A DNA stretch of 33,709 nt from Candidatus Altimarinota bacterium (GTDB lineage: Bacteria > Chloroflexota > Chloroflexia > Chloroflexales > Chloroflexaceae). The number at the start of each line of letters is the position of its first letter. Position 1 is the stretch's first letter. The stretch is taken from the NCBI GenBank assembly GCA_012031775.1, contig JAAUTF010000002.1, forward strand, positions 1-33,709, read 5' to 3'. The notes beneath the pieces were generated by a model, which worked only from the letters and a program-made list of their open reading frames with translations, did not search any database and was not told the origin of the DNA. Position numbers and translations under genes: made by a program. This document shows positions 1-32,973 of this stretch, in pieces.

Positions 1-355
1 GTTCTGATGCGCCGAAAGATCCAGCGCCCGAGATCCCCGATCGCCGATCCGAAGGCCATGCTCAATCGCTTGCGCAACGCTCGTGAGCAGCGCGAGCGCC
101 GTCAGCCCGCTGCGCGTGAGCGCGCCGCCAAAACTCTCGATGAGCCCCGGTGTGCAGCGCTTCGCACCCGGAGACAAGATCCGCTGCCCTCCCTTCGGCG
201 ATGGCGTGGTGCGCGAGAGCCGTATCGAAAAGGGCCGCGAGATCCTTATCGTCGACTTTCCTATGGTCGAGGATATGCGTATCGATACTACAACGCGCCA
301 TGTGCGCTTGCTCGACGACAACGCCGAAATTGTCGACGATGAACTGCCGCTTTAG
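1..355 (+). CDS. C-terminal end of a putative UvrD/PcrA-type helicase (partial, frameshifted)
   Basis: The gene enters from the left edge. The last ~65 residues (about 150-355) read PGVQRFAPGD...FGDGVV...GREILIVDFP and end in a TAG. This matches the small Tudor/SH3-like fold that closes many PcrA/UvrD helicases (basic GD.I..P.FG.GVV pattern) and links the helicase to RNA polymerase or DNA. Upstream of about position 140 the plausible reading moves to another frame, giving a charged, coil-like linker (LNRLRNAREQRERR). A one-base indel therefore probably lies between 120 and 160. The helicase motor itself is outside the window, so the family call rests on this one domain. It could be another protein with the same Tudor-like tail. 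Confidence 0.45.
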
Positions 356-8584: not shown

Positions 8585-8914
8585 ATGGTCGATGCATGGG
8601 TTTTGTTTGGAGTTGTCGCGCTTGTTGCCGTCCCCTGGCTGATTTACCGTTTTATACGCCGACGCAGTAACGCGCATTTTACCGCTAACCGCTTTCACGA
8701 TTACGATTACGATCACGATAGCGGGCGCGATAATGGAACTTTTTTTGTCGGCTCTGCCGCCGGGTATGCCTTAGGCAGCAGCCACAGCAACAGCCAGGGT
8801 GAAAGCAGCCCCGCCAATAGCGATAGCGGCAGCAGTTGGGGCGATACCGGCGGTGGTGGTGGCAGCTGGGGCGGCGATTCGGGCGGTAGTGATGGTGGCA
8901 GTGGGGGCGAATAA
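8585..8914 (+). CDS. Small single-pass membrane protein with Gly/Ser-rich tail
   Basis: 109 residues. One N-terminal helix (VDAWVLFGVVALVAVPWLIYRFI) is followed by a basic patch, an Asp/His/Tyr-rich segment and a low-complexity tail dominated by Gly, Ser and Asp (SWGDTGGGGGSWGGD). Such tails occur in bacterial envelope proteins, but no family can be named. GGAG at 8573-8576 sits 8 bases before ATG 8585; an in-frame ATG at 8543 lacks an RBS. Confidence 0.65.
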   Translation: MVDAWVLFGVVALVAVPWLIYRFIRRRSNAHFTANRFHDYDYDHDSGRDNGTFFVGSAAGYALGSSHSNSQGESSPANSDSGSSWGDTGGGGGSWGGDSGGSDGGSGGE

Positions 8915-29280: not shown

Positions 29281-30624
29281 GTGCAGGTTAATCCTGGGAT
29301 CTTTAAAGCCTACGACATTCGCGGCGTCTATCCGACCGATCTCGACGAGCAGGCGGCCTACATGATCGGGCGCGCCTTTGTTACGTATACCGGGGCGACG
29401 ACAGTAGTCGTTGGACACGATATGCGCACCTCGGGGCCAGCGCTGTTCGAGGCCGTAACGCGCGGCATCACCGACCAGGGTGCAGACGTGATCAGCATTG
29501 GGCTTGTAAGCACCGATCAGTACTATTTCGCCTGTACCGAAACCGGCCTGCCCGGTATGATGGTAACGGCATCGCACAATCCCAAGCAGTACAACGGCTT
29601 TAAGATGGTGCGCAAGATGCCATATTTGCTAAGCGGCGATGAAGGTATTCAGGATTTACGGCATCTGGTTGAGAGCGAACATTTCCCTGATGCAGAGCGC
29701 AAGGGCACGATCAGCGAGCGCGATTATAGCGAGGATTTTATCAAGAAGATGCTCTCGCTGATCGATGTCGCGGCGCTCAAACCGCTCAAGGTGATCGCCG
29801 ACACAGGGAACGGTACTGTCGGTCCGATTTTGCAGAAGGTCTATGCGCATCTGCCTGTGCAGCTCACCGGGCTCTACCTCGACCCAGACGGTACCCTGCC
29901 TAATCACGGGCTCGATCCATTACAGCCCGAAAACCGGGCTGAGCTTCAGCAGCGCGTAAAGGATGATGGTGCCGATCTCGGCATTGCGTTCGACGGCGAT
30001 GGTGACCGTTTCTTCGCTATTGACGATCGTGGTGAGTTTATTTCGGGGGATTTCCTGACCGCGATTCTGGCCGAGTATCTGTTGGAGAAGCAGCCCGGCT
30101 CGAAGATTCTCTACGACGTGCGTGCGTCGTGGGCGGTGGCCGATCGGGTGCGCAGCGTTGGTGGCGTCCCGTTGATGGAGCGTGTGGGTCACGCGTTTAT
30201 CAAACGCCGCATGGCCGACGAAGATGCGATCTTCGCCGGCGAGGTAACAGGCCATTATTACTTCAAAGATTTTACCTACGCTGACTCAGGGCTGATTCCG
30301 TCGCTGCTGCTGTTGGAGATGCTCTCGAAGCGCGGTGTAAAAATGTCGTACTTGCTGGGCGAACTTGAGGCGAAGTATTTCATCTCAGGCGAGATCAACT
30401 CCAAGGTGCAGGACGCTAAAGCGACGCTTGAGGCGCTGAAGAAGCGGTACAGCGATGGCGAGATCGAAACGCTCGATGGCGTCTCGGTGAGCTACGAAAG
30501 CTGGCACTTTAACGTTCGTGCTTCCAATACCGAGCCGCTCGTGCGGCTGAACCTGGAGTCTGTCAACTCGCCCGAGGAGATGACCGAGAAGCGTGATGAA
30601 GTACTGGCGATTATTCGCGGGTAA
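29281..30624 (+). CDS. Phosphomannomutase/phosphoglucomutase
   Basis: 447 residues, alpha-D-phosphohexomutase family. IFKAYDIRGVYP opens the protein, MVTASHNPKQYNGFK holds the phosphoserine, IAFDGDGDRFF the metal-binding loop, AGEVTGHYYFKD the sugar-specificity loop and VRASNTEPLVRL the phosphate-binding loop. The GEVTGHYYF loop fits the PMM/PGM (AlgC/ManB-type) group interconverting hexose-1- and hexose-6-phosphates for polysaccharide precursors. GTG 29281 follows GGAGGAGG. The terminator overlaps its stop codon. Confidence 0.92.
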   Translation: MQVNPGIFKAYDIRGVYPTDLDEQAAYMIGRAFVTYTGATTVVVGHDMRTSGPALFEAVTRGITDQGADVISIGLVSTDQYYFACTETGLPGMMVTASHNPKQYNGFKMVRKMPYLLSGDEGIQDLRHLVESEHFPDAERKGTISERDYSEDFIKKMLSLIDVAALKPLKVIADTGNGTVGPILQKVYAHLPVQLTGLYLDPDGTLPNHGLDPLQPENRAELQQRVKDDGADLGIAFDGDGDRFFAIDDRGEFISGDFLTAILAEYLLEKQPGSKILYDVRASWAVADRVRSVGGVPLMERVGHAFIKRRMADEDAIFAGEVTGHYYFKDFTYADSGLIPSLLLLEMLSKRGVKMSYLLGELEAKYFISGEINSKVQDAKATLEALKKRYSDGEIETLDGVSVSYESWHFNVRASNTEPLVRLNLESVNSPEEMTEKRDEVLAIIRG

Positions 30625-30670
30625 AACAGTGGTGACCGGTTGCAACTGCAATCGGTCACCACTGTTTTTT
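30623..30670. terminator. Bidirectional Rho-independent terminator
   Basis: 16-bp outer stem (30623-30638 with 30653-30668) that continues inward to a two-base loop. T6 at 30665-30670 follows on plus and a U-run on minus. It serves the phosphomannomutase gene and the minus-strand gene ending at 30673. Confidence 0.8.
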
Positions 30671-30672
30671 AT

Positions 30673-31119
30673 TTACCGTAGAATCAAGACGGCACCGCCA
30701 TGAAAAACGTGCTCAGCATATTGGCGGGCGCGCTCTTCCTCAACGCCGCGCTGGTGCAAGAAGCTTCGCAGTTCGTCCGTATCATCAGGCCCCTCGACCG
30801 TGTCAAAACTGCCCTGCGGCTCGACATTTCGATCGTGCAGATTGCCATCGGTATCGTCGTAGCGCCCCTTGCGCTCCAAATTGCGGTCGTGTAGATTACC
30901 ATCGGTATCGTCGAAACGGCCCTTGCGCTCCAAATTGCGGTCGTGCAAAGCGCTGTCAACATCATCGAAGCGACCCTCGCGCATGTGCTCCATTTCTGTG
31001 CGCAGCGTTTCAGCCGAGAGAATAGCATACTGTGCCCCGGGATTCTTCGTGCCGTGCAGTTCCTCCCAGGCGCGTTGGGCCGCTGCGTGATTGTCGTAGA
31101 TCCCTATGATATTCATCAT
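30673..31119 (-). CDS. YflT-like general stress protein with internal 18-residue tandem repeats
   Basis: 148 residues. N-terminal IIGIYDNHAAAQRAWEELHG...YAILSAET and C-terminal LRSFLHQRGVEEERARQYAEHVFHGGAVLILR match the two halves of the general stress/YflT-like domain (beta-alpha-beta ... alpha-beta). Between them sit three clean 18-residue repeats (residues 49-66, 67-84, 85-102; consensus GRFDDTDGNLHDRNLERK) and a degenerate fourth (~103-120). The repeats are strongly charged and replace the usual middle of the domain. AAGGAGC precedes ATG 31119; a second ATG follows at once at 31116. The function is unknown. Confidence 0.75.
   Translation of the reverse strand: MMNIIGIYDNHAAAQRAWEELHGTKNPGAQYAILSAETLRTEMEHMREGRFDDVDSALHDRNLERKGRFDDTDGNLHDRNLERKGRYDDTDGNLHDRNVEPQGSFDTVEGPDDTDELRSFLHQRGVEEERARQYAEHVFHGGAVLILR
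30814..30975 (-). repeat. Three tandem 54-base coding repeats
   Basis: Three in-frame copies of a 54-base unit encoding GRFDDTDGNLHDRNLERK-like peptides; units two and three are nearly identical at the DNA level, which implies recent duplication or unequal exchange. Confidence 0.8.
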
Positions 31120-31176
31120 CTGCTCCTTGCGTAGAATGTGCCTCTACGTGAGAACAGCAAGAAACCTGCCACAATC

Positions 31177-32109
31177 TTACAAACGCCCAACGGCAACAAG
31201 CGCCAGAATGATCACACCGGCGATAATACGATAGATGCCAAAGGGAATGAACGTATTGCGCGAGACATAGCGCAGCAACCAGTCGATGCTGAGCCAGCCG
31301 ACAATCATCGCGACCGTTGCGCCAAGCAGGAGGTTCCCCCAGTCGGATGGTGCGATCTGGTCGAAGCTGCCGATCAGATCGACAAGTGTGGCGAGGCCAA
31401 GCGTCGGCACAGCAAGGTAGAAGGAGAAGCGTGTTGCCACTTCGCGGCTGAGTCCGGCGAAGAGACCGCCAAAAATTGAGGCACCTGAGCGTGACACTCC
31501 CGGGATAAGCGCTAAGGTCTGGGCGATGCCGACGCCCAGCGCCTGGCCGTAGCTGATCTGCTCGAGATCGGCAGTCCGTGCAGCTTTACGTGGTAGTCGT
31601 TCGACAATAATAAAGACGATGCCGCCGAGGATAAGCGAGGTGGCGATGACTTGTGGGCTCTCGAAGAGCACTGTTTTGATCCAGTCGCGTGCGAGCAGGC
31701 CGATGATCGCCGCAGGCAAAAACGCCACGAGCACTGCGATCCAGAAGCGGCGCGCGTTGTGGGTGGCCGACGGTGTTTCCCCCTGGCCGAGCACAGCGCG
31801 CAACTGGCTAAAGAGATCGCGGAAATAATAGGCGACCACCGAAATCACTGTGCCAAACTGAATAAAAATTTCGAAGGTTCCGCCGATACTGCCGCCGTAA
31901 TCGAGGAGATCGGCAGCAATCAGCAGATGCCCGGTCGACGAGATCGGCAAGAACTCGGTGAGGCCCTGCACGACGCCCAGCACGATGACTTTCCACCATT
32001 CGGGGTTACTCGGTACAGTGAGGACGAGGCCGAGCACGAGCAAAACGAAGGCCGCGATCATCAAGGGCATCGGCAGGCGGACATTCGATTGAACAGCTGT
32101 GTTTTGCAT
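31177..32109 (-). CDS. uppP: Undecaprenyl-diphosphate phosphatase
   Basis: 310 residues. Recycles undecaprenyl pyrophosphate to the monophosphate carrier for cell-wall and polysaccharide synthesis. The family motifs GVVQGLTEFLPISSTGHLLIA (first active-site loop) and LALIPGVSRSGASIFGGLFAGLSR (second loop) are both intact, and about eight hydrophobic helices span the protein. An N-terminal extension with an extra helix (PLMIAAFVLLVLGLVLTV) precedes the conserved start, making it slightly longer than the usual ~270 residues. ATG 32109 has no RBS; a TGC-TATAAT promoter sits 6 bases upstream. Confidence 0.94.
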   Translation of the reverse strand: MQNTAVQSNVRLPMPLMIAAFVLLVLGLVLTVPSNPEWWKVIVLGVVQGLTEFLPISSTGHLLIAADLLDYGGSIGGTFEIFIQFGTVISVVAYYFRDLFSQLRAVLGQGETPSATHNARRFWIAVLVAFLPAAIIGLLARDWIKTVLFESPQVIATSLILGGIVFIIVERLPRKAARTADLEQISYGQALGVGIAQTLALIPGVSRSGASIFGGLFAGLSREVATRFSFYLAVPTLGLATLVDLIGSFDQIAPSDWGNLLLGATVAMIVGWLSIDWLLRYVSRNTFIPFGIYRIIAGVIILALVAVGRL

Positions 32110-32115
32110 ACCAGG

Positions 32116-32124
32116 ATTATAGCA
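32116..32124 (-). promoter_or_regulatory. Extended -10 promoter, leaderless start of uppP
   Basis: TGC-TATAAT on the minus strand (TATAAT complement 32116-32121), six bases before ATG 32109. The arrangement repeats that of the methyltransferase operon. Confidence 0.55.
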
Positions 32125-32201
32125 GCCACAGATGAGCCGCCTATCATTTTGAGGCGCACGGACGCACGCTTTAGGTGACGTTTTATTCTATAAAGCTCGG
32201 A

Positions 32202-32236
32202 TTGCTGCCGATGTGGCAACGCCACATCGGCAGCAA
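32202..32236 (-). terminator. Terminator of the metallophosphatase gene
   Basis: Perfect 16-bp stem (32202-32217 with 32221-32236) and a 3-base loop, eight bases past the stop at 32245; a short T-rich segment follows on the minus strand. Confidence 0.6.
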
Positions 32237-32244
32237 CACTTCTC

Positions 32245-32973
32245 TTACATACCGAATTCGAGGCGGCGGATGAGCGCGAGTGGCAGTTGTGCTTCCTGCA
32301 TCTGCTGCTGCGTCTTGCCGATGTCGTAGGCCACACGCTGGAAGCGCACAGTGTTCGTATCGGTGTCGAGCATAGCGTAGGCCGCACGTGCATCTTGGTC
32401 GCGGGGCTGGCCGACACTGCCGGGGTTAAGGAAAAAGCGCGTCGTCTGCAGCTCAAGCGTCTGGCCGCTCTCGGGCAAGAAGCGGCGCACACGGGCGCTA
32501 TGGTCGATCTCGAAGCCGAGCTGAACGTGCGAATGGCCGACAAAACAGATCTGCGTATCAAAGAGCGCAAAGTTGATGCGCGCCTGGTCGGGCATCAGCA
32601 AATACTCCCAGACTGGCTCGCGCGGGCTGCCGTGAACCACAGTGTAGCGGTCGTCGATACGTACAAGCGCTGGTAAGGGCTCGATCCAGGCACGATTCTC
32701 AGCGCTCAACTGTTGCCCATTCCAGATATTCGCGCGGCGCGCATCGGGGTTAAAATCGCTCAGATCTAACTTATCGAGGCAGGCCAGATCGTGATTGCCG
32801 GTGATGGCGATCGATGCATGCTGACGCATCAGTGCGATACACTCATTGGGTCGTGGGCCGTAGCCGATAGTATCACCAAGACACCAGAGCGCATCGTAAG
32901 AGCCGGCAGCAGCGAGAACAGTCTCAAGCGCGACAAGGTTCGAATGAATGTCTGAAACGATCACAATACGCAT
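32245..32973 (-). CDS. Calcineurin-like metallophosphoesterase
   Basis: 242 residues with all metal motifs: IVSDIHSNL (DxH), CLGDTIGYGPRPNECI (GDxxGYG), ITGNHDLA (GNHD), VVHGSP and FVGHSHVQLGF (GHxH). The GYGP...C and ...NPGSVGQPRDQD patterns place it in the YfcE/MJ0936-like group of bacterial phosphodiesterases, whose physiological substrate is mostly unknown. ATG 32973 has no clear RBS, and its upstream region is shared with the divergent surface-protein gene. Confidence 0.9.
   Translation of the reverse strand: MRIVIVSDIHSNLVALETVLAAAGSYDALWCLGDTIGYGPRPNECIALMRQHASIAITGNHDLACLDKLDLSDFNPDARRANIWNGQQLSAENRAWIEPLPALVRIDDRYTVVHGSPREPVWEYLLMPDQARINFALFDTQICFVGHSHVQLGFEIDHSARVRRFLPESGQTLELQTTRFFLNPGSVGQPRDQDARAAYAMLDTDTNTVRFQRVAYDIGKTQQQMQEAQLPLALIRRLEFGM

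Follow-up and report, generated by a model that had tools for sequence, protein, structure and literature searches.

Gene organization and local context

The window (the entire 33,709-nucleotide stretch of DNA analyzed here) contains a real and conserved open reading frame with a product of 148 amino acids, in which the two halves of a YflT/DUF1269-like domain are separated by a charged repeat array (Table 1). The array (aa 49-110) consists of three complete 18-residue units and a truncated fourth, in line with the 18-residue tandem repeats originally noted at this position. Both TRF and a repeat finder detect the corresponding 54-bp period in the gene; in the protein, the 41 self-matches at offset 18 were reached in 0 of 10,000 shuffles, the best of which gave 25 (offsets 5 to 60).

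Table 1. Features of the array gene and its immediate surroundings
Feature	Position	Strand	Remark
Whole gene; split YflT/DUF1269-like domain interrupted by charged repeats	30673..31119	-	148 aa
N-terminal half, aa 1-48	30976..31119	-	AlphaFold2 model: beta-alpha-beta and helix
Repeat unit 1	30922..30975	-	GRFDDVDSALHDRNLERK
Repeat unit 2	30868..30921	-	GRFDDTDGNLHDRNLERK
Repeat unit 3	30814..30867	-	GRYDDTDGNLHDRNVEPQ
Truncated unit 4	30790..30813	-	GSFDTVEG; motif retained, spacer unrecognisable
C-terminal half, aa 111-148	30676..30789	-	AlphaFold2 model: alpha-alpha-beta
Terminator-like hairpin in the gap between the array gene and the convergent phosphohexomutase gene	30623..30668	.	-32.9 kcal/mol (- strand folded), z -10.75
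uppP/BacA gene, 57 bp upstream of the array gene	31177..32109	-	Pfam BacA

The array gene is convergent with a gene encoding a phosphohexomutase (phosphoglucomutase/phosphomannomutase), and the near-palindromic hairpin in the gap between them is very strong, with a T run seen by the scan on the + strand. The upstream gene uppP may share a transcript with the array gene; a simple sigma-70 scan of positions 30550-32300 returned no promoter-like site. Beyond uppP lies a metallophosphoesterase gene, and the gap between these two genes contains a second long inverted repeat (32202-32236; 16 pairs, loop 3). Other repetitive or irregular segments of the window include a short tandem repeat with a 33-base period (8832-8910), judged by eye to be of a glycine/aspartate/serine coding type, and a Gly/Val-rich repetitive reading frame near the contig end (33390-33656) with 12- and 18-base tandem repeats within and beside it. 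At 415-2343, a large membrane-protein-like reading frame ends in an Arg/Cys/Ala-rich C-terminal tail that appears by eye to be out of frame, possibly due to a frameshift or an assembly error.

The array interrupts a domain related to YflT and DUF1269

No Pfam model scored above its cut-off for any of the nine array proteins collected in this study (window protein included). With the window protein, the model of YflT / general stress protein 17M (PF11181) gave 16.7 bits, below its cut-off of 26.2, and DUF1269 (PF06897; cut-off 26.9 bits) gave no match at E <= 10. PF11181 touches the N half of 4/9 members, as well as that of a related short form, at 16.2-20.9 bits (the best being L056 with 20.9; L070 has 16.8), all of them under the cut-off, and DUF1269 has a sub-threshold match (22 vs 26.9 bits) on the C half of the member L069 from genome G081.

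The comparison by hhalign with canonical YflT/DUF1269-like proteins gave 98.2% for the N half and 97.8% for the C half (crossed controls, 19.9% and 19.7%), figures favored by the recruitment of most canonical rows with our own profile. The comparison was therefore repeated with canonical proteins recruited by the Pfam YflT model, giving 96.8% and 94.9% for the N and C halves, and 9.5% and 3.1% for the crossed pairs. Alignment A6 omitted the C half of L067, and alignment A12 that of L059. Judged from these profile comparisons, the protein's two ends correspond by homology to the two halves of YflT/DUF1269-like proteins and follow in the same order, which places it within the wider superfamily. 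The array sits between the two halves in all nine members, with the C half of L067 being too divergent to judge. Thus, the original assignment of the repeats to the interior of a YflT-like domain holds with respect to the homology of both halves, whereas the name YflT itself is carried only by the sub-cut-off score given above.

The array proteins and the known families differ in what fills the slot between the halves. In canonical proteins it is occupied by a glycine/alanine-rich segment ("glycine-rich segment" being used here as a by-eye description) or by very little, as in L036 and in one protein of the window genome (from L065). The same genome encodes three paralogues that match PF11181 above its cut-off, and in all three a glycine-rich segment joins the halves. 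The window protein shares the N-half homology with the YflT family, but in place of the glycine/alanine-rich segment it has the charged four-motif array; with respect to DUF1269, the likeness is confined to the C half, and the insert of the array proteins is different. On another contig of the window genome (L065, 429-2401), two neighboring genes encode YflT-like proteins. The first combines a glycine-rich insert with DUF2382; the second, truncated where the stretch ends, has almost no insert, matches DUF2382 below threshold and lacks any PF11181 match at E <= 0.001.

Distribution and phylogeny of the array proteins

Searched singly against 100 nearby genomes, the window protein had matches at E <= 1 in 22 of them, those in seven genomes (G000, G002, G024, G006, G010, G049 and G072) being clear (E <= 6.4e-5). 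Profile A1 found full-length matches in 9 of 158 genomes of the class, adding G081 and G078. Five of these nine genomes belong to the window's own family and four to one other family of the same order (the Chloroflexales, to which the Chloroflexaceae belong). The remaining A1 matches were partial; among those that were read, most were canonical, one was the short form and one (L051) was seemingly unrelated. In a phylum sample of 400 genomes, where only the best candidates per genome were scored and weaker relatives may escape, the A1 and A9 profiles matched two each, all previously found. A scan of genome contigs with profile A2 yielded 82 pattern matches, of which four were confirmed as relatives (the copies in G024, G002, G010 and G006).

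No relative was obtained in single-sequence scans of genome contigs and viral contigs, in the A2 profile scan of viral contigs, or by tblastn against plasmids and against phages. The PDB sequence search with the window protein gave nothing at E <= 10, and the PDB matches produced by profiles (3 with A1, best E 0.11; 20 with A7, best E 0.022) were regarded as chance. PHROGs and PADLOC had no match at E <= 0.1 for the five proteins tried, and NCBIfam had nothing near cut-off for the short form and 8/9 members (L069 left out). The literature searched, to which most subscription literature is external, contained nothing on this repeat or variant; within these bounds, the array protein appears to be a previously undescribed variant of the YflT/DUF1269-like family.

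A profile built from the array alone (A9) had matches at E <= 0.01 in 8 of 82 genomes from the order, in every case within an array protein; G072, whose array of 13-residue pitch is absent from the profile, escaped it. The possibility raised in the preliminary description that the repeat would prove to be a separate, independent domain is thereby rejected for the genomes searched. The other concern raised there, that the copy number might be an assembly artefact, is unlikely to apply, because the orthologue found next to this phosphohexomutase gene in a second genome carries all four units as well.

The gene neighborhood is inconstant between members. L056 retains the convergent phosphohexomutase (by sequence), L067 and L068 come after a phosphoglucose isomerase gene, and L055 is flanked by SDR and DUF892 genes and by PhoU and AI-2E genes. 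Genes of the AI-2E, Holin-X and ion-channel types surround the short form in L071, where a YflT-like gene follows about 4 kb further on. The gene content of the L055 and L071 loci resembles that of stress clusters, and we infer that these neighbors fit a stress setting. AI-2E family transporters (L055, 3683-4894; L071, 976-2136) thus occur near an array protein and near the short form in two different families.

In a tree of the joined halves (24 rows, 87 columns), a branch with a support of 82/86, not decisive for this grouping, separates the nine array proteins and the short form from the other rows. The nine array proteins by themselves are not set apart by any branch of the best tree, and the one-clade test gave p 0.28, so that a single origin of the array is neither shown nor excluded. 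The end branches of L067, L068 and the window protein are long.

Four motifs at a variable pitch

Each of the nine members, which are related and do not count as nine independent events, has four in-register [GA]-x-[FY] motifs. Their pitches are 18-18-18 in five members, 13-13-18 in two, 13-18-18 in one and 18-17-18 in one. With the looser pattern [GA]-x-[FYW], 8/9 members have four matches in the array, and L056 has an additional fifth, out of register. The motif mostly reads R-x-G-[ST/R]-[FY]-[AD]-D-x-[DE], with charged spacers between the motifs that vary among members in length (pitch 13-18) and in sequence; in the window protein, the G is followed by R in 3/4 units.

Among the 36 units of the nine members, G is present in 35, F or Y in all, and D at +4 in 29, a high conservation that is partly built in, as the five core positions from G to +4 are constrained by the search pattern, which was itself chosen after the first members had been seen. 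Of the positions that the pattern leaves free, -2 is R in 25/36 units and +6 is D/E in 25/36, so that both are retained too; H stands at +10 in 18/36. A calcium-type DxDG loop was considered as a common feature and rejected, Gly at +7 being present in just 11/36 units.

The units within an array are related to each other in different ways. In both L069 and L055, units 1 and 3 resemble each other; unit 2 differs from them in L069 and is less similar in L055. In L070, units 1-3 are all similar. These distinct duplication patterns all arrive at four. On the other hand, a related protein from genome G071 (L034) has two motifs only, along with extra C-terminal sequence. The comparison of repeat number, proposed among strains in the preliminary description, gave across genomes a steady four in the array proteins, with this relative as a counterexample.

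One conceivable role for such units is that of a metal-buffering loop, in which each unit would contribute Asp/Glu and His ligands and the four together would coordinate several metal ions during stress. The acidic residues at +4 (pattern-restricted) and +6 and the His at +10 could supply the ligands. However, this His is absent from the 13-pitch units (L057, L067 and L068) and from the last unit of 9/9 members, and no clear metal-handling gene was found among the chosen neighbors scanned. We regard metal buffering as unlikely.

Divergence of the repeat copies

The copies within the window had been described as near-identical DNA repeats produced by a recent expansion. The three full copies are in fact only 76, 67 and 78% identical in pairwise DNA comparisons, and the synonymous changes account for 5/8, 6/13 and 6/10 of the differing codons. 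The respective Nei-Gojobori estimates are dN of 0.13, 0.26 and 0.11 and dS of 2.6, saturated and 1.5; with only 18 codons per copy the dS values are rough, yet their direction is clear. Silent sites have been replaced while the protein was retained, so that a recent expansion is unsupported in the window array, the copies of which are, by these estimates, old. The presence of four units across genera also speaks against a recent expansion, and this part of the preliminary description was abandoned.

The arrays of other members have a different record. Copies 1 and 3 of L055 are 98% identical in DNA, and the copies of L070 are 93-96% identical, values from which a recent homogenization of the copies is deduced in both arrays. 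Copies 1 and 2 of L056 have a dN of 0.21 and a dS of 0.23, with no constraint evident from that pair alone, and L055 copies have a dN of 0.13 and a dS of 0.21. For copies 1 and 3 of L057, L058 and L069, dN is far below dS. In L067, dN exceeds dS in 2/3 comparisons, although a pitch of 13 puts the 54-base segments compared there out of register.

The ongoing homogenization implied by the high copy identity in L055 and L070, together with a dN near dS among some L055 and L056 copies, would be expected of a passive repeat, that is, of a tolerant loop in which slippage makes and remakes repeats and where solubility is the sole role. A slot that accepts varied inserts, or nearly none, is also consistent with this explanation. 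It sits poorly with the retention of four in-register motifs in every member, with the excess of silent changes among the window copies (dN 0.11-0.26 vs dS 1.5 to saturated), and with the retained R at -2 and D/E at +6. Overall, we consider a purely passive array rather unlikely; both this explanation and metal binding are less likely than either a docking array or a protective shield (see below).

Predicted structure and composition

AlphaFold2 models, each built on 5 sequences, were obtained for the window protein (mean pLDDT 60.4, pTM 0.43) and for L055 (mean pLDDT 66.4, pTM 0.50). In ten-residue blocks, the arrays of both have pLDDT values of 40-46, and the halves have 54-82 in the window protein and 75-90 in L055 (last block 65). 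Structure prediction, which had been suggested as a check of the insertion, thus places a low-confidence array between better-modelled halves; the alignment being shallow, such values are compatible with disorder but do not prove it. On the Uversky plot the arrays fall on the disordered side, but so do all 5 whole proteins, and the test therefore has no discriminating power for the array. The charged array is probably a soluble, disordered loop.

Foldseek found nothing with E <= 0.001 for the window and L055 models. In a second look with VIA, the best match of the L055 model was the C-terminal domain of YpbH (3jto; Z 6.2, rmsd 1.9, 61 aligned residues) and that of the window model was a set of ClpS chains (Z up to 3.6), although by VIA's own note Z values of 6.2 and 3.6 may reflect merely a common arrangement. 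The alignment of L055 with YpbH spans the range 1..173, a hint that in this model the two ends of L055 come together in a single domain. YpbH is a Clp adaptor, and so is ClpS according to the titles of the structure entries. These resemblances provide a lead to a Clp-adaptor-like function, in which a Clp ATPase would be bound by the compact alpha/beta domain and substrates would be recruited or delivered by the loop. Besides the lack of a Foldseek match, it is weakened by the fact that the window and L055 models resemble different adaptors and that maize cytokinin oxidase comes close behind (Z 5.0-5.5 with the L055 model). A function of this kind appears very improbable.

The composition of the array was assessed in five proteins, in all of which its GRAVY is between -1.25 and -1.67 and its Gly content is 8.1-16.1%. 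For hydrophilins the thresholds are a Gly content above 6% and a mean hydrophilicity above 1. The window protein as a whole (8.8% Gly, GRAVY -1.08) is beyond both thresholds. Three others (L056, L055 and L058) miss the GRAVY value and L057, with only 5.1% Gly, misses both, so that 4/5 whole proteins fall short of GRAVY -1.

These features raise the main rival to the interpretation favored below, namely a hydrophilin- or LEA-like shield against drying, salt or heat, in which the hydrophilic, glycine-containing disordered segment would act with no specific partner. Passages of PMC2292704 characterize hydrophilins by high glycine and high hydrophilicity, and a reference title in the same source points to the repeats of GsiB. 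Hydrophilins, group 1 LEA proteins and the GsiB-type KGG repeats (PF10685) have in common with the array short, charged, glycine-containing tandem repeats and a stress setting, a likeness in the way they may work. The low AlphaFold confidence in the array and the stress-type neighbors at the L055 locus would also suit a shield. Unlike KGG/GsiB repeats, the array has a pitch of 13-18 residues with one aromatic residue per unit and is embedded between the halves of a folded domain. PF10685 had no match in the repeats of the members, and none at E <= 0.001 in the window genome; membership in the KGG/GsiB group was rejected, as hhalign gave 0.1% for the arrays against three KGG proteins from the window's own order. 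The absence of this relationship, the composition of the whole proteins and the fixed number of aromatic motifs, which a shield does not require, weigh against it; we view a shield as a real, if lesser, possibility.

A putative tetravalent docking array

The interpretation that we favor, albeit tentatively, is that of a soluble stress-type protein in which a disordered loop presents four linear motifs for contact with a partner or with the protein itself. The product would be a small general-stress-type protein, probably cytoplasmic, with the two halves folding together and gripping both ends of the loop. Each of the four linear motifs displayed by the loop would offer one aromatic residue with a basic residue before it and acidic ones after it, and the four jointly would form a tetravalent array for docking or self-association under stress, kept soluble by the charged spacers. 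Selection would then hold the motif and the number four, while the length and sequence of the spacers could drift. In favor of this interpretation are the homology of both halves, the four in-register motifs of every member with their retained R and D/E, the different duplication patterns that lead to four, the low dN among the window copies, and the low pLDDT and hydrophilic composition of the array; against it stand the two-motif relative L034, the dN/dS values of L055, L056 and L067, and the differing neighborhoods. As for the stress setting, passages of PMC9912610 describe YflT of Bacillus cereus as heat-induced and SigB-dependent.

A broader and more doubtful proposal can be derived from the comparison with canonical proteins. 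The slot between the YflT/DUF1269-like halves may be a modular loop position, which one branch of the Chloroflexales would have refilled with a tetravalent disordered array; the count of four would be selected while the units turn over, and the four aromatic stickers might nucleate or crosslink assemblies.

YflT/DUF1269-like proteins are also found far outside this group and are poorly explained. The array proteins, in which the glycine-rich segment is swapped for a soluble four-motif array while the canonical form is present in the same genome, make up a natural replacement set in which the contribution of the folded halves can be told apart from that of the insert. If true, the steady number of four despite the turnover of units would be a clean and testable bacterial example of how selection can act on disordered-region valency.
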